A stretch of DNA of 64,000 nucleotides from a bacterium. Lineage in GTDB: Bacteria; Electryoneota; Electryoneia; Electryoneales; Electryoneaceae. This document shows, piece after piece, positions 45,501 to 63,699 of the stretch. How positions within the stretch are numbered: position 1 is the first letter of the stretch; each line of letters starts with the position of its first letter. The notes beneath the pieces were generated by a model. It saw only the letters and a list, made by a program, of their open reading frames with translations. It had not been told where the DNA came from and searched no databases. The position numbers and the translations under genes were made by a program. Location of the stretch: contig JAHLLH010000004.1 in NCBI GenBank assembly GCA_020444265.1, positions 124,001-188,000 on the forward strand, given 5' to 3'.

Positions 45501-45657
45501 AGGAGGAAGAACTCTTACGTGTTGGACCCGTATGCAATCGTATTTTAATCTTCAGGTTGACTCTCAGTCCCTTGGGATTCGAGGTATGCACGAGGTTGGA
45601 TGTCGGATTTGTTTTTCGAGTGAAATGATCGTGAGGCGAGGCCACCATGTTTGTTGA
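45487..45657 (+). CDS. Possible leader ORF overlapping the NACHT gene start
   Basis: 56 codons (MTNLGGGRTLTCWTRMQSYF...), with AAAGGGG 6 nt before the ATG. It ends TGA inside the first codons of the next gene, an 11-nt overlap that could couple translation. No similarity recognised. Its first codons lie in the repeat, so it may be a chance frame. Confidence 0.28.
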   Translation: MTNLGGGRTLTCWTRMQSYFNLQVDSQSLGIRGMHEVGCRICFSSEMIVRRGHHVC

Positions 45658-48600
45658 TTTGAAGCGAAGATTTAGAAAATGGGACAAAGAAACGAGCGAT
45701 TTGTTGGCAATGATGGAGTTAATTCAGCTCGACGAGTCTGGTGAGTTTCAATATTCAAGGGGATGGGAGGAATTACTCGAGCGGAAATCGACAATTGTGT
45801 TAGGTGAGGCAGGAAGTGGCAAATCGGTTGAGTTCAAGAATCAGGTAGAGCGAATTAACAGTAATGGAAAATTTGCTTTCGGGATAGAAATTCACGACTT
45901 GTGCAAAAATCCATTATCTAATTGTGTTGATCAAGCACTCTTTAAGAAATGGCGTAGATCAAAGGAATCTGGTTATTTCTTTCTGGATTCACTCGATGAA
46001 GCCAAACTTCGCCAAAGCACTCTTAGACAAGCATTACTTTCTCTATCGAATGGCATCCAGGGATTTGAGTCAAGAATTCATATATTTATTTCAAGTCGAA
46101 CTAGTGATTGGGATAATCGAACAGACTTTGAAGAGTTCAGTGCAGCTATTAAGAAATTAGTTGATCTTAAAAGGGATAAAATATCAGAAGATGCTAATTT
46201 AAATGCGGATAACCACGAAAATATTATAGAATCATGCTTTGTGCTCCTACCTCTTGACGGTTCTCGTGTAGTGCAGCTTGCTAAAGCAATTGGTGTTGAG
46301 AATCCTTCAGGCTTTTTAGACGCAATTCGGCATGCAGGAGCAGAGCCACTCGTTGGGCGCCCGTTGGATGTTGAATGGATGGCAGAGCATTGGATTGAGG
46401 AAAACCTAATAGGTACTTGGACAGAGATTCTAGAAGGCAAGATTTCTGCCGCACTATTCGAGCGTCACCGCGAGCGTGAATCCAGACTTAGTGATACAGA
46501 CGCATATGGTTATGCAGAACGAATTGCAGGATTCATGTCATTGTCTAATGCAAGATATATCTCTGCACCGGGAAATTCGACCAGCGAAACTGGAATTCTG
46601 CCTATAGATGATCTCGCAGCCGATCTTGAATTGCACAAAAGGCATGAATTGGTTTCACGAGGAGTGTTTGATGTTCCGACCTTCGGACGTATCAAGTTTC
46701 ACCACGAGTTCATTCGCGAGTACTTGGCTTTCAAATGGTTGGCCCGTCCGGAGTTCTCACGACAAAAAGTGGCTCAGTTGTTCTTTTCATCGGGTGAGGC
46801 ACATCCAATCCCAATGCATCTTAAAGCCATAGCTGCTTGGTATTGTATTTATAGTCCTGACTTTCGAAGAACGGTAATCAGAAAAGAGCCAGAGTTGCTA
46901 TTTGATTTGGGGGATCCACAAGCGATTTCGGTAGAAGAGCGTATACAGATTCTCGAATCTCTTCGCAGAAAATACAAACACAGACTAGAGTTCGGCTTTT
47001 ACTACGACAGATCGCGTCTGGCAAGATTTTCTAATGGCTTACCTACCAAAGCTTTGGTGAGCTTGCTGGAAGACCAGGAGGCACCTGATGAATTTGTTAG
47101 AACAATTCTGGAGATTGCTCTCGCCGGTGAACACAAAGATCTAGCAAATCAGGCAACCCAGATTGCTCTGTCTTCTGAACGAGGCCCTTCTGTCCGAATT
47201 GAAGCAATCAACGTAGTATCAAAGCTTGGATCCTCTGAATTGCTTTCAGTTTTATCCGGCTTGAAAAACGATCTATCGCTTCAAGAGGAAATTGCCGCAT
47301 CTCTTATTGACTTTCTATTCCCTGGTATTCTCACCATCGGTGATGTTACAGCCGTTTTGAAGGGTATAGACAAGCGGCCCAGACATGTCCATACGCTGCT
47401 AGACTCAGTTATTACAAGGAGTATCCCAGAACATGCTAACTTAGAGCAACTTATTGAGATAATAATCGGTGTTGGGGACTTCGTGTTCAAGGAAGATGAA
47501 AGGGGTGATATTACAATCCAGCAAGGCCAAGGATGGCTGCTCAATGGTCTATATCTCTGGGTTACTAAAGTGGTTAATCAAACCAGTATTGAGGTATACA
47601 ACGATCAACTTCTAAATGTAATGCACCTTCTATTTCACCATATCTATTCCCACCTCCATTCAAATCTAGATTCAAGTGAGTTCTTAAAGGCAGTGGCTTC
47701 ACGATCTTCTGTAAAGCGCGTGGTTATTGATTATTTGTTGAAAATCCATCCCAACACCACTTGTAGAAACATTATAAATGATCATAATCTCTATAATGCT
47801 CTAAGTATGGAGGATTCTGAGTGGGTACTAAAGTATGCAGAGTATGCTGAATTGGATCGGGCGAGTGAGTCCGCCAAGGAATTAGTCTGGGATATATACT
47901 TAAATTCGAACAGGACGGCTAAGGCAAAGCGCTTTGTCAAACAATTCAACGATCTTATACCAGAGAAAGCAATTCGATATAAGAGAACGATTTTGGGGAT
48001 ACTCAAATACAAATTGCACTTTCATCGTCCGCGTTGGCCACGCTATAAACATAGACTACTGCATTGGAAGAACTTGTTTCTTGACACATTGCGATTGCTG
48101 GTTAACCTTAAACAAATTCAAGCAGGCAATCACCTACAAAATCTTCAATATCTGGCGCGTCTGATGCAAGAAGAGTCGCCTTCAAGCTATAGCGCGGTTA
48201 ATCCAGAGAGAGTTAGGAATAGGCATGGCAGACTGATTGAAGATGCAGCTGTTGAAGGGCTTAAACGTAGATGGCGAACATACAGCCCACCGTTACCATT
48301 TGAGAAAGAAGAAGGTCGAGGCACTACCTACGGCACAATAGTAGGGCTTGCGGGGTTGTCGCTTGAGATGCCAGACCAAGGTTTAGGTCGCCTCGACAAT
48401 CAGAGCACCACTGACTACTTGAACGAAGTTGTAGTAGGATGGGCTATTGACCCAAGATCTTTAAATAGAGAAGAGATCACGTTGATGACTCGATACGCCA
48501 TTCACGAGCTCAACCAGCCGCCGAAATGGTTTTCGGTTGTAGCTTATTATCACCCCATATGGGTGATAGCAGCACTTTCTGAGCAAATAGAATATGAATT

Positions 48601-49897
48601 CGATTATCCGCCGGGTGAAGAAGATCTTGAATGGGGAATGGCAGTCTTCAGGAAATTCCCTTATTTAGATGATTGGGTCAAGCGATCATTGGCCGCACCT
48701 TTCCAAGAACAATTCATTGCCAAACAACCACTACACACCGAAGTACTGAAGCGAGCGCTCGAAGTCTTAATGACCGACGAGTACTTGTTTTTCGTGCCTC
48801 TCGTCAACCTTGCTTCAGAAGAACTAGGCGATGAGAGACTTGAACCTGGACGCTTTGCGGTTTGGTGGATAGTCTTTGCACATAGTCAGCCTCAACGCGC
48901 TACAGAGGTTTTACGTACCCGATTGTCGACGCTTTCATCTACAAAAGCTGATCAACAGATGGTAATCCTACTTGATTTACTTCACGATTGGTTTGGTGAT
49001 CGACATAATTATCACTCAAGGTGGCTGTACAATGAGCTGATTCTAGCCTCTTTGATTCCACTGATTCATGCCCACCTTCGCTACGAGGAAGACCTGGAAC
49101 ATGAGGGAGGGTATAGCCCCTCAGCGCGTGACGAAGCTCAAACGATGCGTTCAATAATATTGGGGCGAGCTCGAAACATTGGTGGTGACAAAATTCGAGA
49201 AGCATTTGAATTGATCGCAAATAAAGAATCTAACCCAGAACGTGCTGAGTGGTTCCGAAACATGGGCGATGTGTCTGAGCTGAGAATTGAAAGGCTAAAA
49301 CCGATGACGATTCCTCAAGTATTTACTTGGGAATCAGAAAGTACTCTTTTGGTTGAGAACGAGCCAGATCTATTTAGATCAACCCTCCACGTTCTTGGAG
49401 AGATTAAAGCTTTTATTGAAAATGACGACTTCAGCATTCGAAATCTATTTGTCGAGAATAAAACCAAGAGTCCAGTGAAAGAAACTCAGGTACAGCTATG
49501 GCTTGCACATGAGCTCGAGGGTAGAAGTCGGGGCCAGTTCAGTGTAGAACGTGAACCCGAGGTAGACCTTGGGAAAAAACCGGACATTCGACTGTCTAAT
49601 CCCAAGAGCAAAGGCCCGATATCAATCGAGGTGAAAATTTCGAGCCAATGGAGTGGAAATGAGCTTAAAGAAAAGGCGTTGGAAGAACAGGTTACTACCA
49701 GCTACCTTAAGGCTTGGAATTCAAGGCACGGGATTCTACTTATTTGCAATATTGGGCCAAAAAAGGAATGGGAAATCGGGGGCAAGAAGCTGAATTTTCA
49801 ATGTTTGATAAATGAACTCCAAGAATACGCTAATCTGATCCTCAATAATAATCGTGAGATAGAAGATATTCGTGTTGTTGGGATTGACTTTAATTAG
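45647..49897 (+). CDS. NACHT-like STAND NTPase with C-terminal PD-(D/E)XK nuclease, putative anti-phage protein
   Basis: 1416 residues. N-terminal NTPase: Walker A 'GEAGSGKS' (53-60), Walker B 'FFLDSLDEA' (111-119) in the NACHT-style hhhDxxDE form, sensor-like 'IFISSRTSDW' (~146-155) and winged-helix-like 'IKFHHEFIREYLAFKWL' around 348. A ~900-residue mostly helical region follows, likely repeat-like and possibly the sensor. The C-terminal domain has 'KKPDIRL' (Asp1313), 'SIEVKI' (Glu1328, Lys1330) and 'EEQVTTSY' (Gln1348, Tyr1353), the pattern of a PD-(D/E)XK nuclease. Characterised bacterial NACHT/Avs proteins carry the effector N-terminally; here it is at the end. AT-rich compared with all neighbours, suggesting transfer. 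Likely a self-contained abortive-infection protein. Confidence 0.72.
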   Translation: MFVDLKRRFRKWDKETSDLLAMMELIQLDESGEFQYSRGWEELLERKSTIVLGEAGSGKSVEFKNQVERINSNGKFAFGIEIHDLCKNPLSNCVDQALFKKWRRSKESGYFFLDSLDEAKLRQSTLRQALLSLSNGIQGFESRIHIFISSRTSDWDNRTDFEEFSAAIKKLVDLKRDKISEDANLNADNHENIIESCFVLLPLDGSRVVQLAKAIGVENPSGFLDAIRHAGAEPLVGRPLDVEWMAEHWIEENLIGTWTEILEGKISAALFERHRERESRLSDTDAYGYAERIAGFMSLSNARYISAPGNSTSETGILPIDDLAADLELHKRHELVSRGVFDVPTFGRIKFHHEFIREYLAFKWLARPEFSRQKVAQLFFSSGEAHPIPMHLKAIAAWYCIYSPDFRRTVIRKEPELLFDLGDPQAISVEERIQILESLRRKYKHRLEFGFYYDRSRLARFSNGLPTKALVSLLEDQEAPDEFVRTILEIALAGEHKDLANQATQIALSSERGPSVRIEAINVVSKLGSSELLSVLSGLKNDLSLQEEIAASLIDFLFPGILTIGDVTAVLKGIDKRPRHVHTLLDSVITRSIPEHANLEQLIEIIIGVGDFVFKEDERGDITIQQGQGWLLNGLYLWVTKVVNQTSIEVYNDQLLNVMHLLFHHIYSHLHSNLDSSEFLKAVASRSSVKRVVIDYLLKIHPNTTCRNIINDHNLYNALSMEDSEWVLKYAEYAELDRASESAKELVWDIYLNSNRTAKAKRFVKQFNDLIPEKAIRYKRTILGILKYKLHFHRPRWPRYKHRLLHWKNLFLDTLRLLVNLKQIQAGNHLQNLQYLARLMQEESPSSYSAVNPERVRNRHGRLIEDAAVEGLKRRWRTYSPPLPFEKEEGRGTTYGTIVGLAGLSLEMPDQGLGRLDNQSTTDYLNEVVVGWAIDPRSLNREEITLMTRYAIHELNQPPKWFSVVAYYHPIWVIAALSEQIEYEFDYPPGEEDLEWGMAVFRKFPYLDDWVKRSLAAPFQEQFIAKQPLHTEVLKRALEVLMTDEYLFFVPLVNLASEELGDERLEPGRFAVWWIVFAHSQPQRATEVLRTRLSTLSSTKADQQMVILLDLLHDWFGDRHNYHSRWLYNELILASLIPLIHAHLRYEEDLEHEGGYSPSARDEAQTMRSIILGRARNIGGDKIREAFELIANKESNPERAEWFRNMGDVSELRIERLKPMTIPQVFTWESESTLLVENEPDLFRSTLHVLGEIKAFIENDDFSIRNLFVENKTKSPVKETQVQLWLAHELEGRSRGQFSVEREPEVDLGKKPDIRLSNPKSKGPISIEVKISSQWSGNELKEKALEEQVTTSYLKAWNSRHGILLICNIGPKKEWEIGGKKLNFQCLINELQEYANLILNNNREIEDIRVVGIDFN

Positions 49898-50240: not shown

Positions 50241-50270
50241 AACGTGGCGACCCAATAAGGTCGCCACGTT
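50241..50270 (-). terminator. Terminator hairpin abutting the tRNA-Lys 3' end
   Basis: Perfect 12-bp stem AACGTGGCGACC / GGTCGCCACGTT immediately after the tRNA CCA end on the minus strand; presumably the original terminator of the tRNA-Lys gene. Confidence 0.65.
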
Positions 50271-50322
50271 TGGTGAGCCGAGTGGGACTCGAACCCACGA
50301 CCTTGGGCTTAAAAGGCCCAAC
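50271..50322 (-). other. Attachment site: displaced 3' half of tRNA-Lys(UUU)
   Basis: On the minus strand this reads from the anticodon stem (TTGGGC, loop CTTTTAA, GCCCAA) through the variable loop, T arm (GTGGG TTCGAGT CCCAC) and acceptor TCGGCTCA to CCA. No 5' half precedes it: the expected GAGCCG...D-arm is absent. This is the direct-repeat footprint left when an integrative element inserts in a tRNA gene. The intact gene should lie beyond the right edge, next to the integrase at 63700. Confidence 0.78.
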
Positions 50323-50578
50323 TTGCGATTTTCGCTGAGTGTGGTACTCGAATCTAAATAGCTATAAGTCAAGGAGTAAGATGTGGGTTTATTGCTGTAG
50401 TCTGTCGTGCTCCGAGGGGAGGTCTTGCGATTTACTCCCCCATAGCTCCCCCATAGATGTCGGAGGGGAGGGGGGTGCGGGCATGTGGGGTGCCCCTGCC
50501 TGCGGGCAGGTACAATTATTCGGCGCACAACATTTTCTTATATTCTCTGCCACTCTTCGAGCTATTGGTTTTGAGCCA
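50323..50578. other. Non-coding left end of the integrative element
   Basis: Low-complexity, G/C-strand-biased sequence with repeated CTCCCCCATAG at about 50436-50456 and a hairpin CCTGCCTGCGGGCAGG near 50498. No gene supported. Confidence 0.4.
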
Positions 50579-50625
50579 AACAGCCCCCACAGCAAGGACC
50601 TTCAGGTCGCCACTGAGGGGGCTGT
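50579..50625 (-). terminator. Terminator following the serine-type tRNA
   Basis: ACAGCCCCC ... GGGGGCTGT outer stem with an inner GACCTGAAGGTC hairpin, directly 3' of the tRNA on the minus strand. Confidence 0.55.
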
Positions 50626-50627
50626 CG

Positions 50628-50716
50628 CGGAGGGTATGGGATTCGAACCCATGAATGTGGTTTCCCACATCTCTCGATTTTCAGTCGAGCGCAATCGGCC
50701 ACTCTGCCAACCCTAT
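50628..50716 (-). tRNA. Serine-type (class II) tRNA with GAA (Phe) anticodon, possibly pseudo
   Basis: Minus strand. D arm GGCAGAGTGGCCGATTGCG, anticodon stem CTCGA/TCGAG with loop CTGAAAA, long variable arm ATGTGG-GAAA-CCACAT, T arm ATGGG TTCGAAT CCCAT. The long variable arm and D loop are those of tRNA-Ser, but positions 34-36 read GAA, the phenylalanine anticodon. The acceptor stem pairs at five of seven positions (ATAGGGT with ACCCTCC), and CGA stands where CCA would be encoded. Either a decayed tRNA-Ser(GGA) or a tRNA that would put serine at Phe codons. Confidence 0.6.
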
Positions 50717-50803
50717 CTGGGGTTCAGCAAACCCTGGATACGGCTGGGTTAAAAGTAGTATAACAACATTTTTCGAATTGTCAAGTCTACAGCATCACCG
50801 AAA

Positions 50804-51475
50804 TCACTTGCGGGTCATCTTCTTTCTCTTTGGAGTTGTCGCTTGAAGCGATTCGCTATGTTTTCCAAGGATATAAGTAGTGTGCAGTACATTCTCTGTG
50901 ATTTCCGCCATATGGTTGACCTCTGATTTTTTTGGATTCCACCCCCGATGATTCGCTGCATGTCCTGCTTCAACAACGGAGGCAAAATACTCGCTCTGTT
51001 TTCTTCCAATCAGGCCTGCACCCTCGATAGCCTCTAACCCTTTTCGGAATGAACTCTGTTCTCCTACCCGATCCCGGATAACGAAGTCCGCCATCGCGCG
51101 CAATCCCATTGCCGCAAGTCTGTTTGAATGATGCGAGATGGCGCTGTAAACTTCGCGCATTAGATCTCCAAGGTCTTGCGGAAGACCACCTATCCAATCA
51201 GGTAATTGCCTCGCAATGGAAGCTGGATATTGAGTAACCCCGAACTCCTGATTGTCAAGAAACTCAAGTTCTTCAACCTTATATGCGTCACACCCTTTGC
51301 ATTGGAGCACTTTCCATACATAGTCAAACTTGTACCAAGAGCGGGGATCACTTTCGTTCGATAAAAAGGACTCCGACCAGCTGCCTGTATGCTGAATGAT
51401 ATGTTTGGTCTTGTGCCCGCAGTTGTTACACCATGAAAGTTTCTCAACTAAGGCTTCATTATTTTCCGTTTTCAT
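50804..51475 (-). CDS. DUF4145-type protein with N-terminal zinc ribbon
   Basis: 223 residues from the ATG with AAGGAGAG upstream. Zinc-ribbon cysteines 'CNNCGHKTKH' and 'CKGC', then a DUF4145-like helical block 'LPQDLGDLMREVYSAISHH' with 'RLAAMGLRAMADFVI', ending in a basic 'TPKRKKMTRK' tail. DUF4145 domains are frequent inside or beside restriction systems, often fused to type I R subunits. Last gene of the minus-strand defence cluster. Confidence 0.78.
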   Translation of the reverse strand: MKTENNEALVEKLSWCNNCGHKTKHIIQHTGSWSESFLSNESDPRSWYKFDYVWKVLQCKGCDAYKVEELEFLDNQEFGVTQYPASIARQLPDWIGGLPQDLGDLMREVYSAISHHSNRLAAMGLRAMADFVIRDRVGEQSSFRKGLEAIEGAGLIGRKQSEYFASVVEAGHAANHRGWNPKKSEVNHMAEITENVLHTTYILGKHSESLQATTPKRKKMTRK

Positions 51476-51557
51476 GCCTTCTCTCCTTGCCGCCTCTACC
51501 CTAAAGTTCTTGATAGAAGTTACTCGCACACATTCAAGGCGATGGACTGGATTTCCT

Positions 51558-52466
51558 TCAACTTCCCTCGATTTTGTCATACCCATCCAGCCGGACTTCC
51601 TGAATCTTCATGTCATTGGACACGCGGTTGAGGAAGTCGCTGACGTCGCTGTTCAGGTCGGCGAGCTTGTTCAGGGTATCCCAATCGATTTCGTTCTTGG
51701 GCCGTGCAGGGTAGAGAACCCTTGAGGCGTCCCTGTCCTCTATATCCAGGAGGATCACCCCAATTCCGAAGGCTGTGGATAGACGTTCCAGCTCACTCTG
51801 GAATTCTGGTTCATTGCTGATCGAAGCAGCCACCAGATACCCCTCATGCGCCCACGATGAATTTGAGACAGCTTGAAAGAAGGACTCCCGAAGGTTGCCA
51901 AAGCTGAGGGAGCGTTTCATCTCAAACGAGTAAAACCGAACAACTTCTGATCCGGTCACTTGTGCCAGTTGTGAGATACTTGGGTGCCAACTCTCGAAGA
52001 AAAACTGAGCACCTATAAGATCAGGGTGCAGCCATTGGTTTTCTTTTCGGCTATGCCCCTTCTTGGATTTCTCGTGTCTGATCGTTTTCGTATACACCGG
52101 GAAACGGAAATAAGCAAATTGGCTCAGGTATTTGTGCAGTTCGCGTTCTTTTGGGAGTTGTTGTTCGGTTTTTTGTTCGATCTTCTTCTCGATGGTTGAT
52201 TGCCACTTTGGGGGAAGGTTCAGGGACTTGACAAAGAAGCGAGTAGGTCGTGATCCGATACGAAAGAACTCAGTTTCATCGGGTTTGTGTTTTGTCTCCC
52301 AGTACAGGGTAGATATAATAGTGGCATCAGGAGTCTTTCCTTGTAGAGTACTCAGCTTGTCGAGTCCCTTCTCAACGGCATACTCCCAAATCTCTGCGCC
52401 GGTCAGTGGATACCCTACTTCCTCGATCACCTTGATTGCGAGTTGACGCCATCCAAGCTTTGCCAT
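51558..52466 (-). CDS. HARE-HTH domain protein with C-terminal restriction-nuclease-like domain
   Basis: 302 residues from the ATG 5 nt after AGGAGGGG. N-terminal ~80 residues are a HARE-HTH DNA-binding domain ('IKVIEEVGYPLTGAEIWEYA', 'TPDATIISTLY'). The C-terminal domain has 'HPDLIG' (Asp149), 'SFEMKRS' (Glu182, Lys184) and 'ESFFQAVSNSSWA' (Gln199), the order of a PD-(D/E)XK nuclease. HARE-HTH domains have been proposed to sense modified DNA, so a modification-dependent nuclease is plausible. 50 nt downstream of the peptidase gene. Confidence 0.72.
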   Translation of the reverse strand: MAKLGWRQLAIKVIEEVGYPLTGAEIWEYAVEKGLDKLSTLQGKTPDATIISTLYWETKHKPDETEFFRIGSRPTRFFVKSLNLPPKWQSTIEKKIEQKTEQQLPKERELHKYLSQFAYFRFPVYTKTIRHEKSKKGHSRKENQWLHPDLIGAQFFFESWHPSISQLAQVTGSEVVRFYSFEMKRSLSFGNLRESFFQAVSNSSWAHEGYLVAASISNEPEFQSELERLSTAFGIGVILLDIEDRDASRVLYPARPKNEIDWDTLNKLADLNSDVSDFLNRVSNDMKIQEVRLDGYDKIEGS

Positions 52467-52516
52467 TGCCCCTCCTGATTCATGTAGATCGAACGCACAG
52501 CTCTCAAACATAACCC

Positions 52517-53212
52517 CTACACATCCATCCCCGCACCGTTAACCCGCAACCAGTTTTTACGCTCACGGTAATCGGGGAGCACTTTGTCCACCTCGTTCCA
52601 GAACGCTTCTGTGTGGTTGGGATGGACGAGGTGCGCGAGTTCGTGGACGATGATGTAGTCGATGATGGTAGCGGGGGCCATCATGGTTTTCCAGTGGAAA
52701 TGGACGAGACCCGCCTCATTGCAGGATGCCCAGCGATGTTTGAGGTCCATCACCTTGAGGGCTTTCACCTCCACACCCATCCGCTCAGCGAAATATTCCA
52801 CCCGTTGGAAAATTCGAGCTTTGGCCTTCTCGCGGTAGAACTCCTTGAAAGCCTTGTCCGCATGGCCGTTGTGAACGTAGTCGCTGTGCAGGCAGAAGTA
52901 CCCGTCCTTCAGCAGCAAGGGCGCGTCCTGGTCATTCACGAGCTTCAAACGGTACGTCCGACCCATATACAGGAAGCCCTCACCATTCACATAGTCCCGG
53001 CGAATCTTGGTGGCGTTCAGGTCACGCCACTCGGCGAGGTTGCGGTATATCCAGGACCGCTTCTTCTCCAGCATCTCCTCGATGTCACCCGCACTCAGTT
53101 CTTCCGGCACCAGCACAGAGACCTGCCCATCCCGCTCGATGTAAATGCTCGCGGTTTTACGCTTGCTGCGTGTCAGCGTGTAGGCAATGTCCTTGTACTG
53201 CTGCTGCATCAT
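52517..53212 (-). CDS. YgjP/SprT-type metallopeptidase (M48-like, DUF45)
   Basis: 231 residues. Zinc site 'HELAHLVHPNHTEAFW' (HExxH plus a downstream His), preceded by 'WASCNEAGLVHFHWKTMMAP'. This is the YgjP-like family commonly encoded next to type I restriction genes; in other systems it is proposed to act on or with the R subunit. Its ATG overlaps the hsdR stop by 4 nt, so it is part of the hsd operon. Confidence 0.88.
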   Translation of the reverse strand: MMQQQYKDIAYTLTRSKRKTASIYIERDGQVSVLVPEELSAGDIEEMLEKKRSWIYRNLAEWRDLNATKIRRDYVNGEGFLYMGRTYRLKLVNDQDAPLLLKDGYFCLHSDYVHNGHADKAFKEFYREKAKARIFQRVEYFAERMGVEVKALKVMDLKHRWASCNEAGLVHFHWKTMMAPATIIDYIIVHELAHLVHPNHTEAFWNEVDKVLPDYRERKNWLRVNGAGMDV

Positions 53213-56200
53213 GAGAGAAGGTCCTTGTGCCGATGCTTCGCGAGGTTAGTGATCTCGGTGACCAACTTTGGCGTTTTGTCCGCGATGGCATCCACCTCTG
53301 AGCCGAGCAGGATTTCCGAGATGGATGCGCGCAACTGCCTAACCGCATCCGTGTTGTTCCAGAAGTTGATGATGTTGATCCGCTCGGCCAACAGGATCAC
53401 AACTTCCGCAGTGATCCTCTTCACTTCAGGATCGTCCTCGGGTGGCATCTGAGTGCCTTCGTAGGCTATCGAGGCGATGTTGGCATAGAAGGGCTGAGCC
53501 TTCCGTCCGAGGCCCTCTACGGCGTCCTTACGGCCTTCAGCGGCCTCCTGGCGGATGGAGAACAGCTCGGCGAAGAGCTTGTCCCAGTCGTCCTTGTACT
53601 TCTTGATGGCGTCCTCGAGCTTCTCGCTGATTTTCTTGTAGAACGCCGGGTCCTCATTAAAGTGCACCTTGGCGTGCTTACGGATGGCGTGCTCCATCTC
53701 GCTCGCTTTCGCTCTGGGGCTTTTGCTCGAGTGCTTGTCCAGCTCCTTGATGAACTTGTCCGACAGCAGCTCCACGGGTGGAATCTTCGGGTTGATCCCG
53801 AGGCTGATGAGGTGCTCGTCGATCAGCTTCTTCACCTTGCCACCCACGCCGGAGATGGTCAAGGTCTCGTCCTTGTACCGCTGACGGACGTGGGCCATAA
53901 TCACCCCGAAACGCTTGGCCGGAATCTTGTACGGGTTGCCGCTGGGGTTGGGCAGGACCACGTCCAGGCTGGTGAGGAACTTCTTCAGGTAGACCTCGAA
54001 GTTGGCCCGCTGCTTCAGGTCCTCCATCTTCGTCACAGCATCGTCGAGAATCAGGTATTCCTCGGCGGTGGTCATCTTTTTCTGTTCAACAAAGTCCTTG
54101 ATCCGGTCTACCTTCAGCTCGGTGAACAGGTTCAGCAGGCGCTGGTACCGGGTCTGAAGGATCGGGATTTCATCGGACACATCCCGCAGCCCTTTCTCCA
54201 CCTCATCGGCATCTTCCTGGGCATAGATCGAGAGGGCATCACTAAGGTGATTGGCGAGGCCGATGTAATCCACGATGAAGCCACGACTCTTTCCCTTCGC
54301 CACACGGTTCACGCGGGCGATGGTCTGGAGCAGGTTGTGATTCTTGACCTTCTTGTCGATGTACATGACCTGCTCAACAGGGGCATCAAAACCGGTCATC
54401 AGCATATCCACGACTACAAGGAACGCCACGCCTGTGAGTGGTTTCTTGTAGTCGAACCGAGCTTTGAAACTTTTTACTGCATCCATCTCCCTGGCACGCT
54501 TCCGCTCGATGGTGATCTCAGCCAGCTCGTTCGTACCCATACCCGAGATGACCACCACCACCTTCAGGAACTCGATCTTCGCAATAAGCTCATCATTGCG
54601 GTGGGCCTCGAAGTCCTCCTCGGTCATGTCTTGCGGGTCACCTTTCCAGACCGGTTTGGCGTACTCGTAGGCGAGACGTTCCTCGATGGCCGCCTCGATG
54701 AAACGCCTGTACTTGACCGCTGCCTTCTGCGAGGATGCCACCACCTGCGCCTTGAAGCCGTTGGGGAGGATTTCATCGATGTAGTGGTTCACCATGTCAC
54801 GGGCGATTTCTTCGATGCGTGCATCCGCTTCGAGCAGGTCTCCGGTGGTACCCCACTTCTGTTTCAGCTTCAGGATCTCGAGTTCGGTGTGTTCCTGGAT
54901 GAGGTCGTCGAGGGGTTTGTGTTCCTTCCCGGAAATCTTCCGCAGCTTCGCCAAGTTCGCAGCACGGCGCATCTGACTCTCGACAATCCTCCGGGCTTCA
55001 GCGTCCACCTTTGTGTCGAATTCGTGCTTCCGGTCTACCGCTGCATCGTGGGTCTTGCCCTCGTAGACGATGCGCACCGTGGCTCGGTCTGCGACAGCAT
55101 CCAGCAGCATGTACTTGTCGATGTATGTCCCAAAAGTCGAGACGGTCTTGTGTTCTCGCTGTTGACCATCTTTCACCTTGATGAGGGGGGTGCCGGTGAA
55201 GGCGAGACGGGTGGCATTTGGGAACGCTTCGACAAGGTTGTCACCGAGATCGCTGCCATGACTGCGGTGGGCCTCGTCGATCATCAGCAGGATACGGCTG
55301 CTCTCATTTACCACCCCGATCCGTTCGAAGCGGGGGATAGTGAGGGCCTCGTCCAGGTAGTCCGGAACATCGTCAAAACGCTCGCCCTGGAACTTGTGCA
55401 CCATCACCATGTTCAGGTTCGAGGCATCCGTGGCGAGCTTCTGCTTCATCATCTCGGACGACTCGATGGTGGTCACCTTCTCACCGGAGAGTTCCGCGGT
55501 CCGTGTGAGCTGGTCCTCGAGGTCGGTACGGTCACAGACAAGGCACACCTTGTAATCCTTCAGGTCCTCCAGCATCCGCAGCTTGCGGATCACAAAGACC
55601 ATCGTCAGGCTCTTGCCCGATCCCTGGGTATGCCAGATAACACCCGAGCGTTCTTCGGGGGTGGACCCCTCGCGCAGCCGTTCGATGATCTTGACCATTG
55701 CCCTGTACTGCTGATGCCGTGCGAGGACCTTCACACGCTTGTTGCCCGCATCCATGAAGACGGAACAGGTACGGATCAGGTCGAGCAGGGTCTCCTTCGG
55801 CAGCATCCCCTGAATCAGAACTTCCTGCGCGCGTTTCTTGCCGAGTGGTGGGTCGTACTCACGATACTGCTCGGGGAAGATGGAGCGCCACGGGTACCAG
55901 AACTCCTCGTCCGTCGCGGTGATGGTTCCGAATTCCGCTTCCTCGCCGATGGTGCGGATCAGGAGCTGGTTTGTCCAAAAGAGCTTGGGCTCGCCTTCAT
56001 GCAGTCCTGCCAGCCGGGTATCCTCGCGCTGGTCGGAGTACCGCATTAGTTGCTGAAACGCTTCATTCAGCGGGTTGGCTTCGGTCTTGCTGACACGTTT
56101 GCACTCAACCACCCCAATGGGCAGGCCGTTGACAAAGAGGACGATGTCCGGGATAATCATTTCCTTGACACGGCCCGGAGTATCGATGCGGAACTGGTTG

Positions 56201-56607
56201 ATAGCGTGGAAGGCGTTGGCTTCGGGGTGGTGGAAGTCGATCAGCTTGACACGAGGGTGTTCTTCACCGGTGACTTCATTCACATCGGCATGCGCCTGAA
56301 AGAGCAGCCCAAGGATCGATTCGTTCGCTTCGGCGAGGTTGCGAGGGGCGCGGTGGTAAACCTCATCAAGAAGTGCACCGAGCTGCTTGTCGGTCAGCCA
56401 CGGTTTCCCGTCCTCGGTCAGGTTGATGGCCCGGATCGCCTCGAAGAAGACACCCTTCAGCGCCACCTCACGAAAGCTGCTCCGCAGGCTTGCCGCAGGG
56501 TCTTCAGGGATGTCCGTCTTGCTGCCCACCGCCTGGTCGATTACCGCCCAGCCGAGGGCTTTGAGCTGGTCAAGGAAGGGCTTCTCTACGTGCGTGTATT
56601 CACTCAT
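53209..56607 (-). CDS. hsdR: Type I restriction enzyme R subunit (translocase/nuclease)
   Basis: 1132 residues, starting at [10 protein letters not shown]; this ATG overlaps the hsdS end by 8 nt. N-terminal nuclease: Asp154 in 'IPDIVLF', Glu168 and Lys170 in 'VVECKR', Gln/Tyr in 'FQQLMRYS'. SF2 translocase: Walker A 'TQGSGKS' (327-333), DEAH at 444-447 in 'LMIDEAHRSH', and motif VI-like 'QTIARVNRVAKGKSRG'. Coiled C-terminal region for M/S contact. All key residues are intact. Confidence 0.95.
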   Translation of the reverse strand: MSEYTHVEKPFLDQLKALGWAVIDQAVGSKTDIPEDPAASLRSSFREVALKGVFFEAIRAINLTEDGKPWLTDKQLGALLDEVYHRAPRNLAEANESILGLLFQAHADVNEVTGEEHPRVKLIDFHHPEANAFHAINQFRIDTPGRVKEMIIPDIVLFVNGLPIGVVECKRVSKTEANPLNEAFQQLMRYSDQREDTRLAGLHEGEPKLFWTNQLLIRTIGEEAEFGTITATDEEFWYPWRSIFPEQYREYDPPLGKKRAQEVLIQGMLPKETLLDLIRTCSVFMDAGNKRVKVLARHQQYRAMVKIIERLREGSTPEERSGVIWHTQGSGKSLTMVFVIRKLRMLEDLKDYKVCLVCDRTDLEDQLTRTAELSGEKVTTIESSEMMKQKLATDASNLNMVMVHKFQGERFDDVPDYLDEALTIPRFERIGVVNESSRILLMIDEAHRSHGSDLGDNLVEAFPNATRLAFTGTPLIKVKDGQQREHKTVSTFGTYIDKYMLLDAVADRATVRIVYEGKTHDAAVDRKHEFDTKVDAEARRIVESQMRRAANLAKLRKISGKEHKPLDDLIQEHTELEILKLKQKWGTTGDLLEADARIEEIARDMVNHYIDEILPNGFKAQVVASSQKAAVKYRRFIEAAIEERLAYEYAKPVWKGDPQDMTEEDFEAHRNDELIAKIEFLKVVVVISGMGTNELAEITIERKRAREMDAVKSFKARFDYKKPLTGVAFLVVVDMLMTGFDAPVEQVMYIDKKVKNHNLLQTIARVNRVAKGKSRGFIVDYIGLANHLSDALSIYAQEDADEVEKGLRDVSDEIPILQTRYQRLLNLFTELKVDRIKDFVEQKKMTTAEEYLILDDAVTKMEDLKQRANFEVYLKKFLTSLDVVLPNPSGNPYKIPAKRFGVIMAHVRQRYKDETLTISGVGGKVKKLIDEHLISLGINPKIPPVELLSDKFIKELDKHSSKSPRAKASEMEHAIRKHAKVHFNEDPAFYKKISEKLEDAIKKYKDDWDKLFAELFSIRQEAAEGRKDAVEGLGRKAQPFYANIASIAYEGTQMPPEDDPEVKRITAEVVILLAERINIINFWNNTDAVRQLRASISEILLGSEVDAIADKTPKLVTEITNLAKHRHKDLLS

Positions 56608-57895
56608 CGAGGGCATCCATAGCTTCGTCCACATTCACCCGGACCTTGCCGGTCAGGAGGTCTTGCATCAGGCCTGTTTTCAAGTGTTGGAGCTTCTCCA
56701 AGTCAGACCGATAGGTGTCAATGGTTCGATTCATAGTCTGGAATACATCAGCAACTCGTTCTTGTTCTTTTGCCGGGAAGACCGCCACAACGAGTTCTCG
56801 AATTTCTTCAAGGTGGAGGTTCGTCACAGTGCCTTGTTTTGAGCGTTTCCTAATCTGAGCCCACGTTTGATCTGACTGAAGGTAGTATGTCAGGAATCTG
56901 GTGTTGATCTTCGACACGATTGGGCGGATGAGTGCAAGACTGACGAAGATCGAAAACTCCCAGTCCCAATCAACAATTTTCAACAGCCCAATAGTACCAT
57001 TCTTAGAGAGAAGGATGTCCCCACGCATCGGATTACATCGAAGGGTGAGTATTCGGTGTTCTTCAGGGCTAATGTATTTCAGCTTGCTAAAATCAATACT
57101 GGTATCCTGTATATCTGTCACCCGTAAAAAAGGTACTCCGTGCTCTCGATATTCGGGCGTGAAGTGCGTTCCGTCGATGATCTTTTCTGTCAACTCCTCA
57201 AGTAACGATGTATCCCACTCTTTCGGGATCATTCCGAGTTCGGAGGGTTTGTATAGGTCGGGGGCTTGTTCGTAGGGGGGGCGAAGCTGACCATGTTCGT
57301 CCACGCCACGGGTGAAGAGGTCGTGCATCATCCCCTGCTTGATGGACTCCTGCTTCGCGATCAGCGCCTCCGTCCGCTCAATCAGGTTGTCCACCGTCGT
57401 CAGGATTTCCGCGATCTTCCGCTGCTGCCCTGGGGGGGGGGTTGGAATTAATAACCGCCGGACATCTTTCGTGTTGATAGCTGGGTAGTTCGAACCCACC
57501 ACATGGCCTTCAACCTGCTTGGCGATGTTGTCTGACAGAATTGAGTAAAGGATGAATCGATCATCCACACCCTGCTTGGCAGTCAACACAGCGAAACCGG
57601 TCGAGGCAACTGTAAGGTCATCGGAATGATCGAATTGGGCAAAAGCGCGAAGGTTAGGACGCACTGTTGACATTAATACATCGCCTCTTTTCAGCACTTT
57701 GCGTGCACGGGATGGGGCTTCACCATAGGGGATTTTATTGGATGGCAACCGCAACTTACCCTCAAAAGCAGAACTGATATCGATGTAGAAAAACTCCTGG
57801 GCAGAGGGTGTGATAACACTGAGTTGCTCTCGGTCAATTTCAGCAAGCTCATCTAATGGTTTCCATTTCCAATTTGTTGGTAAAGAGTCACTCAT
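56600..57895 (-). CDS. hsdS: Type I restriction enzyme specificity subunit
   Basis: 431 residues with two target-recognition domains separated by a conserved helical spacer ('[44 protein letters not shown]') and a second spacer at the end ('[28 protein letters not shown]'). The TRDs set the bipartite DNA target, not readable from sequence. Overlaps hsdM and hsdR by 8 nt each. Confidence 0.94.
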
Positions 57896-60494
57896 AGCCC
57901 AACTCCTTCAAAAACTGGTTGAGTCGGGCGGCTTCAGTGTCTCGGGCTGCGAGGATGTCATTGGCGGTGACAGCGTACTTGTCGTACAGGTTCTCGATGG
58001 CTGCGATCAGACTGCGCAGGAACTGCCGGAGGTAACCGTCATACTGTTCCGATAGCAGCTTGTGCAGCCGTTCGAGGATCAGGGTGCGGGCTTCGTCCTC
58101 GGTGATCTTCTTGCGGGCCTCGGTCACAAGTGCTTCGGTGCGTTTCTCCACTTGCCGGACATTGGCACGTTTCTCCTTCAGCTCCTTCTCCAGGTCGGTG
58201 TGGGTTTTCAGCTTGGTAGTGATCTCGTCCAGGTCAGTCTCGCACTCATTTCGCCGTTTTGCGAGCTTGTCTATCCGCTGCTTCTTCTCCTCTACCTCCT
58301 GCCGATCAAAGAGCGAATTTTCCATCCGTTGGAGATCCTGCTTCGCGATCTTAGAGTCCTTCGTGAGCTGAGTGATCTCACCCTTCAGGGCTTTCTGCTG
58401 GTCTTTCAGCTCCTTGACCGTTGCCTTGGGTAGGACATCCCCATCAGGGTCGTCGCTATCCTCGCTATCCTCCTCTTCGGAGGTGTCCGCAGCAGCGAAG
58501 AGGGCGGTCAGTTCGGCTATCCGTGCCCGGTCTGCTTCCAGCTCCTCCAACACCTGCGGGAACTGGGACGCGAGGATGTCATCCTCCGGGATCAGCTCTG
58601 CACTCCATCCGCTGGCAGCGATGGACTTGAAGTCCGATTCCAGCTCTTTCATGTAGCTCGCGAAGGCACCCCGTACCTGGTGCAAGGTCAGGATGCCCTG
58701 CGGGGTCAGCACCTCCTCGATGTCGTCGAGAAACTTCCTGCGCAGGTCGAAGAGGGCCTGGTCACCCGCCCCTGCGAGGGCTTCGATCTTTGGAAGATTT
58801 GCTGACCACCAGTCATTCAGGGCGTTGTGGAAGGCTTCATGCTTGGCCTGGACACCCTCCGCCGATTCAATCAGAGGCTTGATAGCTTTCTTGTTCTCTA
58901 TGGCATCAGAGAAGTTCCGGTAGGCTTCCTCACGAGGGGCGAAGAGAAGTTCACGGACGCCGGGATAGACGCTCCAGGCATCCTTCAGGCTATCGATCTC
59001 GGCGAGGGGTACGCCACCATGCAGGTGAGCACGCACATCATGCGGTTCCGGCGGAGGGCTGTTGTCCACATAACGCCGGATGTTGAGGTTCCAGTCTTCC
59101 GCTTCCAACTCGCTGACGGGGACGTTCCGTGAGTACTTGGGTTCGTCCAGCTTCTTCCGGTAGACATGGGTGATTTTTTCCAAGTCCTCCGGGCGCAAGC
59201 TGTTCTGGTTTTTGCCTTCCCTGTACTCCCGGTCTGCGTTGATGAAGAGGATGCTGTCCCGTTCCCTTGCACCCTGCTTATTGAAGACGAGGATGCTGGC
59301 AGGAATGCCGGTACCATAGAAGAGGGAAGGTGGAAGGCCGATCACCGCCTCGAGGTAGCCGTCCTCGATGAACCGTTTGCGGGCTTTGCGTTCGTCACCC
59401 CCACGGAAGAGGACCCCGTGCGGCATGACCACGGCCATCCTGCCTTCTTCCTTCAGGGACGCCACCATGTGCTGCACGAACATCAGGTCCGCCTTTTTGC
59501 CGCTGGTAGGCATCCAGGTGTGGAACCGTTCCGTGAACTTCATGTTCGTCTTGCTGTAGTTCTGACTAAAGGGCGGATTTGCAATCACCCGGTCAAAGCG
59601 CTGCCACTCACCCCGTTGGTCCGTGTGTTCCGGCTCGAGAAGGGTATCCCCCTGCTTGATGCTGGCGGACTGAATGCCATGCAGCAGCATATTCATCTTG
59701 CAGATGGACCATGTGGTTCCGTTCAGCTCCTGCCCTGCGAGGAAGAGGTCAGTGGTATCCCCACCGGACTCCTCCACGTACTGCTTCGATTGGATCAGCA
59801 TACCACCGGACCCGGCGCAGGGGTCGTAAATCGACATGCCCTGATGCGGTTCGATGAGCTGGACCATCAGCCGGACAACAAATGCAGGCGTGTAGAATTC
59901 CCCACCCTTCTTGCCCGCGCTGTCTGCGAAGTACTTGATGAGGTATTCGTAGGCTGCACCGAGGAGGTCAGGGAACTCGAAGTCCTCGTTCGAGAGGGGG
60001 ATGTCATCGAAGTGCTGAATGAATTCCACCAGCCGGTCATCGCTGACCACCTTCTGACCGACCTTGCGGTTGTAGTTGATGTGCTTGAGAACGTCCTCGA
60101 GGGTGTCCGGGTTGGCATCCTCGATGGCCCCCAGCGCCTTATTCAGCCCTGAGCCCACCTCTTCCTTCAGATGCTTGATTCTGGACCAGTGCCCCTCCTC
60201 GGGGATGACAAAGGAGTAAATGTCCGGGTTGTTGTCGAGTTGCTTCTGAATGCGATCATCCGGCCAACCGAGGCGCTCGTATTCCTTGCGTTTCTGAGCA
60301 CGCTCCAGGTCGTATTGGTCGGAGAGACGTTTCAGGAAGAGGACGCCAAAAATGAAGTCCTTGTATTCGGAGGCGTCCATATTGCCGCGCAGAATATCGC
60401 AGGCGGTGAAAAGCTTGCTCGCCAACCGGGGGAGGGTCAGTTTTCCATCTGTGTTGCTGTTCCCATTGCCGTTCCCGTTCCCATTCCTCGCCAC
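57888..60494 (-). CDS. hsdM: Type I restriction enzyme M subunit (N6-adenine methyltransferase), long form
   Basis: 868 residues from a GTG 6 nt after AGGAGG. N-terminal HsdM_N domain, '[13 protein letters not shown]', SAM motif '[11 protein letters not shown]' (223-233) and catalytic 'NPPF' (306-309). About 350 residues beyond the usual end are helical, with an acidic patch '[12 protein letters not shown]' and a long coiled coil. The first residues are an (Asn-Gly)n run encoded by near-repeated GGGAAC hexamers at 60453-60485. First gene of the operon hsdM-S-R-peptidase. Confidence 0.94.
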
Positions 60495-60896
60495 TGCTTC
60501 CTCCTGCCCGTTCGCTGGTTTTCATTCTTCCCTGGTGGGGTGACCCTGAATATTGGGAACTGGGGAGGAGGTGTCAACCAACTCCGGGGTGATAGGTAGC
60601 GCGAAGCACACAACCGCCTCGCTTTTTCCAACCATTGGAAAGTTCCATTCGAGCACATCGTGGAAGGGCCTGAAGGTACCGATCACTCAGCCCTGTCCAG
60701 TAAAACTAAGCGAAGTCCGCGAGCACCCCTTGGAGGAGCGCTGCAAAGCCCCTGAAGGGCGAGAATGTGTTGCTGTGACAGTGAAAACAACCCAGTGTGC
60801 CCTTGATCTTGTTTTGTACAAAACGTACATTCAAGAGCACATTGAAAAGCGAGAATCTGAGCGATTGAAACGCTTCGTTTTCTCAAGCCCCAAAAG
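60495..60896. promoter_or_regulatory. Upstream region of the hsd operon with a 14-bp palindrome
   Basis: No gene is convincing here. GTTTTGTACAAAAC at 60811-60824 is a perfect palindrome suited to a dimeric repressor; it lies about 320 bases before hsdM. A plus-strand open frame across 60553-60900 has no ribosome-binding site or domain. Confidence 0.4.
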
Positions 60897-60936
60897 GTAA
60901 AAGCCCCTTTCGGGGCTGGCGGGCAAGATGCCCGCC
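60897..60936 (-). terminator. Terminator of the primase operon
   Basis: AGCCCCGAAAGGGGCT followed by TTTTACC on the minus strand, with a second hairpin GGCGGGC-AAGAT-GCCCGCC just before it. Lies after the primase gene and before hsdM. Confidence 0.65.
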
Positions 60937-60980
60937 TGGTGTTCAGCTCGCTCGAATAAGCAATAACCTGGGGTCGAGAA

Positions 60981-61081
60981 ACGTGAGATACGTGAGATGA
61001 ACTACAAAGCTCTCACTCGAACGTTAAGAAGAAGACTCTTTTTTTAACGTCTGAGCACTATCTATCTCACGTATCTCATGA
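60981..61081. repeat. Iteron-like direct and inverted repeats after the primase gene
   Basis: ACGTGAGAT occurs twice in tandem (60981-60998). Its inverse ATCTCACGT ATCTCATGA lies at 61064-61081. Between them is a hairpin ACGTTAAGAAGAAG / CTTTTTTTAACGT. Could be a replication origin or transfer region of the element, or a complex terminator. Confidence 0.5.
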
Positions 61082-61084
61082 TTC

Positions 61085-62863
61085 TCACCCTGCGAGACGG
61101 TTACCGGGGAGTGCGTAACTCCCGGAATCAGTCTTGCACAGGACACCGTCCCTGACCATGTCGTTCAGAAGCCTGTTGACGGTCTTGGGATGGCGGTCCA
61201 GACGCTGCGCGATATCGGTGTAGAACATGGGTTCCTCACTCTGCTCGATCAACCGATACAAATCGGTCCTCGTAGGCGACAAACCGGGGGGAGGTGCATC
61301 CCCTTCAATGAGCCACCCACCTTCGGTGAGGTCCAGCTTGACCTGAAAACTCACCGAAACTACATCACGGCCACCGATTCGCAGCACACCATTTCCCGGC
61401 GAGGAAGTCTCGAGCAGGATGATGGTATCCGCTGTGCCGGTCAGCCCGAAGGAACCAGACACACTCGAGGTCCGTTTTGTGCTTTCCCGCTCCTTCCGTG
61501 TGTGGTGAACGCAGAGGATGCAGACACCATACTTCATGGCGAGTTTCTGAAGCCCGGAAAGCATCTCCACATCGTGGAGGTACACGCTCCGATTCCCACT
61601 CGTGTCTTCGGCGATCCGGCCATACGTGTCAATCACGATAAGCCGAGGATTGTCCTTGGACATTAGCCACGATTCAAGCTCCTCAATCGCACCGTTCCGA
61701 ATACGACTCAGACCACCTGCGTCCACGAAATCAAGATCACCATCCTTCGGCCACTCTGAGGCGTTCAGGAGTTTGTGCATCCGTGTCTGAAGCCTGTTCG
61801 GACTATCCTCGAGACCACAGTACAAGATCTGGCCCTGGTTCGTAGGATACGCTCCGAGGGTGGTCTTTCCCCGCGACACATCAAGAGATACCTGTAGCGT
61901 CAGCCACGATTTCCCAGCCTTCGGCTCACCTGCGAGAATCGTGAGCCCCACAGGAAGCAACTCGGGGATGACCCATTCAGGAGGTTCGTACGCTTTCGTG
62001 AGGAGGGCGTTGGTGTCGAGAATGTTGAGGAGGGACCCACTCCGCTTCTTCTTTCCGTCCTGGTGGTTCTCCAGGAACGTAGCGGTCCACTCCGGAAGTG
62101 ATGCAGGGTCAAAATCTGAGGTGCCTGCAATCCGATCCACAAGTTCGGCGGTGGAGTGACCCTTATCGAGCCACTCGCTGACATCCTTCGCATCCGAAAA
62201 GGGCTCAACCAGCTTCAACCACTCAGCAACCTCATTCAAGCTGGCAGAAGCTTTCAGGCTATGGCTGACTCCTGCACGGTCAGCATCAGAGAGGAAGATG
62301 ACCTTCTTTCCCCTGAAGTACTGCTGGTATTCACTCCGGTACGCTCCAGCGCCATCGGGGAAGGTGGTCACACAACCCATTCCGGCTTTGACAAGGCGGT
62401 CAGCATCTTTCTCGCCCTCCACCACAATCACCCGTTCTGCTTTCACGAGTTCGTGGAGACGGTAGGGTACGCGACGGACCCCCTCCAAGCCATTGGTGTA
62501 GCCGCCCTTACCATCAGGGCGGCGGTGATAAAACCGTTTTCCTTCCAACCGTACCAGTTCGGAGAGGAGGTTGCCCTCCTCATCCGTGTACTGGTAAATG
62601 GTTTCTTTCTTGGGGCTGGGTTCGAGGCGCTCGGGATAGAGGTCTGCCATTTTGAGCCCAAGTGCCTCAAGAATGCTCTCGATGGTGCAACCAGCTTGGC
62701 AGTGCATCAAGACACGGCCATCCGGTGCTTCAGCGATGGACAGTGAAGGGTTTTTGTCGTCATGCGCAGGGCATTGTGCCAGAAATCCCTTGCTCTGTTT
62801 CGAGAAGCGAAGCCCCTTGTCGGTGAGGGCCTGCAAAACCCTCTGAAGTGGGAGGTTATTCAT
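61085..62863 (-). CDS. Primase-helicase (CHC2 zinc finger, Toprim, RepA-like ATPase)
   Basis: 592 residues. CHC2 zinc site Cys31/His34/Cys55/Cys59; Toprim domain with 'IVVEGEKDADR' (Glu149) and 'FLSDADRAG' (Asp193, Asp195); RepA/AAA_25 ATPase with Walker A 'GEPKAGKS' (312-319) and Walker B 'LIVIDTYGRI'. A C-terminal winged helix follows ('PMFYTDIAQRLDRHPKTVNRLLNDM'). This is the typical replication protein of integrative elements and satellites. Overlaps the excisionase-like gene by 8 nt. Confidence 0.88.
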   Translation of the reverse strand: MNNLPLQRVLQALTDKGLRFSKQSKGFLAQCPAHDDKNPSLSIAEAPDGRVLMHCQAGCTIESILEALGLKMADLYPERLEPSPKKETIYQYTDEEGNLLSELVRLEGKRFYHRRPDGKGGYTNGLEGVRRVPYRLHELVKAERVIVVEGEKDADRLVKAGMGCVTTFPDGAGAYRSEYQQYFRGKKVIFLSDADRAGVSHSLKASASLNEVAEWLKLVEPFSDAKDVSEWLDKGHSTAELVDRIAGTSDFDPASLPEWTATFLENHQDGKKKRSGSLLNILDTNALLTKAYEPPEWVIPELLPVGLTILAGEPKAGKSWLTLQVSLDVSRGKTTLGAYPTNQGQILYCGLEDSPNRLQTRMHKLLNASEWPKDGDLDFVDAGGLSRIRNGAIEELESWLMSKDNPRLIVIDTYGRIAEDTSGNRSVYLHDVEMLSGLQKLAMKYGVCILCVHHTRKERESTKRTSSVSGSFGLTGTADTIILLETSSPGNGVLRIGGRDVVSVSFQVKLDLTEGGWLIEGDAPPPGLSPTRTDLYRLIEQSEEPMFYTDIAQRLDRHPKTVNRLLNDMVRDGVLCKTDSGSYALPGNRLAG

Positions 62864-63089
62864 TGCCCACCTCCCGTGCAGGAAGACCCTGCTCCTCGCT
62901 TTTCTGTTCCACCCAATCGAAGAACGCTGCTTCGTCGATCAGGATGCGCCGCCCAGCGCGGCGAATGACTTTGTCGAAGCCGTTGGTTTTCGAGTAGAAG
63001 ACCAGATGACGCAATCCCCCAAGGGGTGGCCATGCGTGGTACTTCGGCCAATCCGCCAGTGGGATCAGCCTTGGCTGCTTGGAAATCAT
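62856..63089 (-). CDS. AlpA/excisionase-like small DNA-binding protein
   Basis: 77 residues from the ATG with GAGG upstream (MISKQPRLIPLADWPKYHAW). The layout 'RHLVFYSKTNGFDKVIRRAGRRILIDEAAFFDWVEQ' is that of a MerR-like helix-turn-helix domain used by AlpA and Xis proteins to direct excision and regulate the integrase. Directly upstream of and coupled to the primase-helicase. Confidence 0.72.
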   Translation of the reverse strand: MISKQPRLIPLADWPKYHAWPPLGGLRHLVFYSKTNGFDKVIRRAGRRILIDEAAFFDWVEQKSEEQGLPAREVGNE

Positions 63090-63212
63090 CTTTGCCTCAC
63101 AAGTAAATGAATCGTTCAACACTGCGCGCGCTGGGACGAGAATAGACTTGATGAGGCTTGGAGGTTAAAAGCTTAAATCGGGGTGTTTGGGATGTGTAAT
63201 ATTTGCAAACGT

Positions 63213-63677
63213 TTATTCTTCATTTTCACCGGATTCATCGTCTGTGGATTCCTCTCCATACACTTCTGGGAGGATGTCACGCAGAAGCTTCCGCTCTTTG
63301 TAGTACAGGTTTGCGACGTGTCTCCACTCGATGTTGGTTGCTATCTCAACTTTGAAAAAAGCATCCTCAAGGGTCTTTGCTGAGCCATCTTCAAGCAGCT
63401 TCTCCACAGCACAGAACGTCTCATGCTGCCGGGCTTCGGTTTCCCAATAGTCCTTCTGGTGGCCAGGTTTTTTTCTGAGATTGAAAGCTGAATCAGCACT
63501 TTCACCATTCAGAATTCTTGTAAAACACATGACCGAATACGCCTTCAGAGGTTCAGGGAACTTCATACCTGCTTCGTTAAACTCCTTCATATGGCCAATC
63601 AACATCATGGCGTTTCTTGTTTCTCCATCTTTCGCTGAGGCAATCAGCACTTCAAGCATTCGATCCTGAGCCCACAT
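63213..63677 (-). CDS. Element-encoded protein of unknown function
   Basis: 154 residues from the ATG giving MWAQDRMLEVLIAS; GAGGAG lies about 10 nt upstream (a TTG at 63707 would add 10 residues). Helical and charged, with an acidic tail 'EESTDDESGENEE'. 'AEKLLEDGSAKTLEDAFFKV'-like segments suggest a small regulatory or packaging role, but I recognise no family. 22 nt after the integrase gene. Confidence 0.65.
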   Translation of the reverse strand: MWAQDRMLEVLIASAKDGETRNAMMLIGHMKEFNEAGMKFPEPLKAYSVMCFTRILNGESADSAFNLRKKPGHQKDYWETEARQHETFCAVEKLLEDGSAKTLEDAFFKVEIATNIEWRHVANLYYKERKLLRDILPEVYGEESTDDESGENEE

Positions 63678-63699
63678 GGGTATTCTTCTCCTCTTGGGA

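Follow-up and report, generated by a model that had tools for sequence, protein, structure and literature searches.

The window analysed here is a stretch of 64,000 nucleotides, and its minus strand carries a tRNA-like gene that joins the body of a tRNA-Ser to the anticodon GAA. We read this gene, at roughly even odds, as a constrained mimic of tRNA-Ser that would not be chargeable and that is carried by an integrative island. The reading is built on sequence comparisons. The evidence that carries it is a linkage, found across phyla in unrelated bacteria and on their mobile elements, phages included, between a foreign anticodon and damage at the tip of the acceptor stem. The features of the window that bear on the argument are as follows.

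50270-50319, minus strand: repeat at the distal end of the island, the 3' end of tRNA-Lys(UUU), 96% identical to 64880-64929
50579-50626, minus strand: strong GC-rich hairpin of 20 bp that begins immediately after the tRNA; terminator-like, with a short U run
50628-50716, minus strand: Ser-type class II tRNA-like gene with anticodon GAA (ARAGORN, Rfam); pairs 1-72 and 2-71 broken, without CCA
50717-50736, minus strand: small hairpin of the 5' leader, GGGUU-UGCUG-AACCC, directly preceding the tRNA body
50757-50784, minus strand: promoter-like site TTGACA-16-TATACT, matching the consensus at 11/12 bases, with TG ahead of the second hexamer
50804-51586, minus strand: DUF4145 (HEPN superfamily) gene, Pfam PF13643, E 7.6e-12
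51558-52511, minus strand: gene for a HARE-HTH protein, part of the restriction island
52517-53212, minus strand: YgjP-like metallopeptidase gene
53209-60494, minus strand: putative type I restriction genes R, S and M, named from their translations by inspection
63700-64000 and past the window end to 64761, minus strand: tyrosine recombinase, recognized by inspection only from the motif R-HDLRH-GH-Y

ARAGORN calls positions 50627-50716 of the minus strand as tRNA-Phe(gaa), and an Rfam search matches 50716-50628 to RF00005 with 44.1 bits. This is above the gathering score of 29, though the lowest score among the 44 tRNAs of the genome. The gene has a long variable arm, a Ser-type D arm (GGCAGAGTGGCCGATTGC) and G73, and its 7-nt anticodon loop CTGAAAA (CUGAAAA in RNA) gives the anticodon GAA rather than the NGA or GCU of serine. 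Both programs and inspection of the stems thus uphold the first-pass annotation, which had described a serine-type body with a phenylalanine anticodon and had left its covariance score to be checked. The acceptor reads AUAGGGU/ACCCUCC-G, with mismatches A1.C72 and U2.C71, while the acceptor is paired from 3-70 to 7-66; all the other stems (D, anticodon, variable and T) are unbroken, and the acceptor and T arms have the ordinary 7/5 layout. The 3' end carries CGA in place of CCA (GCGA vs GCCA), so that the damaged tip and missing CCA reported earlier are also real. Compared with a functional tRNA-Ser, the gene has the class II body and lacks both G1-C72/G2-C71 and a serine anticodon; a functional tRNA-Phe would have a class I body and A73, where this gene is class II with G73.

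The gene is identical to the tRNA-Phe of the same genome at 46/90 positions and to the resident tRNA-Ser(GGA) at 63/91. The latter value means that it is no recent copy of the resident gene, and the two identities together mean either a foreign origin or an ancient divergence. Normal tRNAs for serine (TGA, CGA, GGA and GCT) and for phenylalanine (GAA) are all present in the genome, so the gene is an extra one that fills no decoding gap. A sequencing error at the anticodon, which had been named as a way for the original claim to fail, is unlikely because an independent relative, MAG87, has the same anticodon.

An island of ~14.6 kb at tRNA-Lys(UUU) covers window positions 50270-64000 and continues to C1:188956; the tRNA-like gene is part of it, about 310 bp from its distal end. 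The end repeats of 50 nt derived from tRNA-Lys, together with the tyrosine recombinase, mark an integrative island, and the suspected location on a mobile element is thereby borne out. The DUF4145 gene lies 88 bp upstream on the same strand. DUF4145 is a member of the HEPN superfamily, and its genes share operons with restriction systems (PMC3710099). In the protein encoded here the conserved His is present, and the usual HEPN Arg is missing. Just outside the island, at 45647-49897 on the plus strand, is a gene for a protein of 1416 aa. This protein matches no Pfam family and has an apparent P-loop (GEAGSGKS) in its N-terminal part; from its sequence it is possibly a large defence-type NTPase.

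The promoter-like site ends 40 nt upstream of the tRNA-like gene; one such site was found, against a mean of 0.7 in shuffled sequence. On the downstream side, the first-pass annotation had proposed a terminator-like hairpin. A long hairpin is indeed present there, but it is followed by just three U and was not listed by a simple terminator scan.

SerRS ignores the anticodon, and most bacterial tRNA-Ser conserve G1-C72 and G2-C71, with C72 and G2-C71 among the listed determinants of serylation (PMC9976931). The acceptor tip was compared in copies that had been collected without regard to it. The anticodon scans covered anticodons whose middle base is A or T. A serine body with the loop NTGAAAA occurs at 8 loci in about 85,000 genomes, one of them (L046) a 6-nt-loop case, and serine-type bodies with a non-serine middle-A anticodon are very rare altogether. 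The tip-blind set comprised 18 copies, namely 8 genomic GAA copies (the window gene included) and 10 viral Ser-type copies with a middle A. Two 6-nt-loop cases, Methyloceanibacter L046 and viral L095, were excluded, as were viral tRNA-Tyr(GUA) matches and the class II tRNAs of Asn, Lys, Gln and Leu.

Pair 1-72 or 2-71 is broken in 15 of the 18 copies (7/8 GAA copies and 8/10 viral copies), and three have an intact tip. Mismatches affect 26/54 tip pairs vs 4/162 pairs in acceptor positions 4-7 and the anticodon stem, with p about 1e-14 for small numbers of copies, some of them related. The lesions differ in kind. On the 5' side they read AUAG in the window gene, CUAG in Photobacterium and ACGG in phage; on the 3' side they read UAUU in prophage copies and GG in Brachybacterium. 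Searches by tip, blind to the anticodon, gave the same picture from the other direction: the 3' UAUU tip returned six viral copies with anticodons GAA, GAU and UAG, and the tip ACGGGGG/UCCCCCC returned three viral copies, all with GAU. No broken-tip match in these anticodon-blind searches has a serine anticodon, and a corresponding search of 386 genomes for broken tips returned the window gene alone. Conversely, the tip is intact in all 14 distinct tRNAs with serine anticodons from the loci retrieved. Members of the UAUU group have different stem sequences in which pairing is preserved, and they share an identical tip.

Linkage of this kind between tip and foreign anticodon is not predicted by drift alone and is predicted by selection against charging a tRNA with the wrong anticodon. 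The rule is not valid for every serine-like body, since the phage class II Asn(GUU) tRNAs L113, L142, L164, L183, L205 and L208, which by identity may be for Asn or for Ser, combine such a body and G73 with intact acceptors. Tip lesion and foreign anticodon in combination provide a simple sequence rule for finding mimics, and hence a directly testable question.

The copies occur in varied settings. The window genome shares its family with MAG87 (G005), which has a 74% identical copy flanked by dnaN and a DUF721-gyrB block. This copy adjoins a DUF4145 gene matching the PD-T7-4 defence family at 3e-69, an AT-rich gene (L041:11990-12856) inserted between dnaN and DUF721-gyrB. The same gap holds neither a tRNA-like nor a defence gene in the window genome (G000) and G002, and in G006 it holds a RecQ-type helicase gene; no tRNA was found at the dnaN loci of the other relatives. 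These differing contents identify the dnaN/origin region as a variable insertion site. The window genome also has three dnaN-like genes (C11:103080, C17:70045 and C2:25775), where its relatives have one each. Among plasmid copies, that of Photobacterium damselae has the Ile anticodon UAU and lies beside hsdR and a MauJ-like gene, and that of Arthrobacter has the Ile anticodon GAU and lies beside an AbiJ_NTD4 gene. A Brachybacterium copy from the plasmid searches, likewise GAU, has a resolvase nearby and no gene of the MauJ-like, AbiJ or DUF4145 type. Viral copies adjoin terminase, tail or methylase genes, not HEPN genes. Three UAUU-ending tRNA-like genes (L049, L158 and L188) lie next to prophage terminase-like genes, and each is followed by a hairpin.

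The strongest competitor to a constrained mimic is decay, in which a tRNA-Ser copy on a mobile element has lost its function while its anticodon and tip drifted. The gene has the lowest tRNA score in its genome, no CCA and a broken tip, a complete normal set of tRNAs is encoded elsewhere, and the copies are very patchily distributed, all of which a pseudogene would explain. Against this, the remaining stems are perfect, and the gene is flanked by a promoter-like site close to consensus and, downstream, by a hairpin. In a random pseudogene, damage would also be expected throughout the fold and whatever the anticodon. That pattern is absent from the copy set, a statement about the set and not about the window copy alone; in unrelated copies the damage is nearly confined to the tip and tied to a foreign anticodon, and drift predicts neither. 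The decay favoured by the earlier annotation is weakened by this recurrence in unrelated bacteria and phages, and we regard it as possible but doubtful. In their extra, island-borne character the window gene and the pseudo-tRNAs or relics of integration sites are alike, but relics are usually 3' fragments, whereas this gene is complete in length, keeps its body intact and has a promoter-like site and a downstream hairpin.

An active chimeric tRNA is a second alternative. SerRS would charge the RNA through its variable arm, and serine would enter at Phe codons at a low and perhaps useful rate, held down by the weak tip. The variable arm, G73 and R4-Y69 are all retained, and the enzyme's indifference to the anticodon (PMC9976931) would permit it. 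There is also a precedent in a human tRNA-Ser whose anticodon was changed from AGA to AAA (G35A) and which is known to mistranslate (PMC9956149). That tRNA shares with the window gene a serine body and a Phe-reading anticodon. Chimeric tRNAs of this type, however, have an intact acceptor and are charged with serine, whereas the window gene has lost its terminal acceptor pairs. Gone with them are the pairing of C72 and the pair G2-C71, and CCA is not encoded; moreover, the recurrent loss of exactly these tip pairs resembles avoidance of charging. The insertion of serine at Phe codons that had been foreseen for an active copy is therefore not supported, because the pairs 1-72 and 2-71 used by SerRS, near-universal as G1-C72 and G2-C71 in bacterial tRNA-Ser, are broken. 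We consider mistranslation unlikely.

The nearest known kin are the inactive allo-tRNAs, notably the allo-tRNA(UAU) group. Most allo-tRNAs have, like the window gene, a Ser-type class II body with a non-serine anticodon. As described in PMC7609411, allo-tRNAs (Mukai et al. 2017) have a 12-bp acceptor branch with acceptor/T arms of 8/4 or 9/3, and links to mobile elements are suspected for the inactive UAU group. The window gene differs in its 7/5 layout and in damage that is confined to the tip.

If the gene is a constrained mimic, its RNA would be expressed from the promoter-like site and would take the tRNA fold yet escape serylation, so that no serine would be inserted at Phe codons. Lack of charging makes a serine tRNA with a foreign anticodon tolerable and leaves its retention unexplained; the RNA may be kept because it binds something that recognizes tRNA bodies or anticodon loops. 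The simplest role would be that of a decoy or lock for a factor that cuts or senses tRNA, and in the island of the window the candidate factor is the adjacent DUF4145 protein. A decoy for tRNA-cutting toxins had been suggested by the first-pass annotation. It gains some weight from this HEPN-family neighbour and from the second genome of the same family, but it stays a candidate, and taken by itself we hold this decoy role to be questionable. More broadly, and only tentatively, phages, plasmids and islands may carry a recurring class of non-chargeable Ser-type mimics with foreign anticodons, RNAs that regulate or act as decoys. Selection would favour their binding to an enzyme that recognizes tRNA (here perhaps the DUF4145 protein) and their absence from translation. 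Annotation pipelines label such genes tRNA-Phe or tRNA-Ile and then trust or discard them. Were they selected uncharged mimics, they would represent a type of RNA by which mobile elements could protect tRNAs from nuclease defence, partner HEPN effectors or signal by way of uncharged tRNA, and the so far puzzling inactive allo-tRNAs might find an explanation in them.

The pairing with a HEPN protein is a separate and weaker claim, since the RNA is missing from most DUF4145, PD-T7-4 and AbiJ loci and viral copies are otherwise flanked. In this version the RNA would be the partner of the adjacent protein, holding it inactive or acting as a phage-defence sensor. In its favour, the family has the RNA in two genomes, the window genome and MAG87, and in each a DUF4145 gene adjoins the tRNA-like gene, with only 9 DUF4145 matches in 39 genomes of the phylum; in MAG87 the two genes lie together within the variable insertion site. 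The known association of this HEPN family with restriction systems also fits, and plasmid copies adjoin the MauJ-like and AbiJ_NTD4 genes. The two DUF4145 (HEPN) neighbours are suggestive only. About 30 other DUF4145, PD-T7-4 and AbiJ loci have no tRNA-like RNA, and the window and MAG87 proteins are only distantly related (18% identity). The MauJ-like and AbiJ neighbours do not match the DUF4145 profile, and the Brachybacterium copy has its resolvase and no HEPN-type gene. A specific partnership seems improbable. A strict HEPN-tRNA module is unlikely, as DUF4145/PD-T7-4 loci in the phylum, beyond it and on plasmids, and AbiJ/PDC-S32 loci, have no tRNA-like gene; homology of the MauJ-like and AbiJ proteins to DUF4145 was likewise unsupported in profile comparison, in which each was a single sequence. 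There is some resemblance to PrrC-type systems, in that a HEPN-family gene, a type I restriction island and a tRNA-related RNA occur close together. Unlike those systems, this one has no ABC ATPase domain, and its DUF4145 protein lacks the usual R of the R-x4-6-H motif. No tRNA mimic is known from systems with PrrC-type HEPN anticodon nucleases.

Least probable among these alternatives is a relic or hot spot of recombination, where the gene would belong to an attachment or resolution site and would matter as DNA alone. It lies near the island end, and in three actinobacterial loci (L097:2998-3857, L243:2497-3297 and L050:6320-7492) a serine resolvase gene is immediately preceded by a Ser-type tRNA whose anticodon is not one of serine. 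The island, however, uses tRNA-Lys and not the tRNA-like gene, and the promoter, the hairpin and the RNA fold are preserved. Direct repeats of the gene are absent near most copies, and an attachment-site origin was rejected for this reason. Thg1-like 5' editing, suggested by mismatches confined to positions 1-3, was discarded because PF04446 is absent from all nine genomes searched.

One further viral tRNA deserves mention. L155:234-298 is a Ser-type tRNA with an intact acceptor and the anticodon UUA, predicted to pair with the stop codon UAA; judged from its sequence it is a candidate ochre suppressor.
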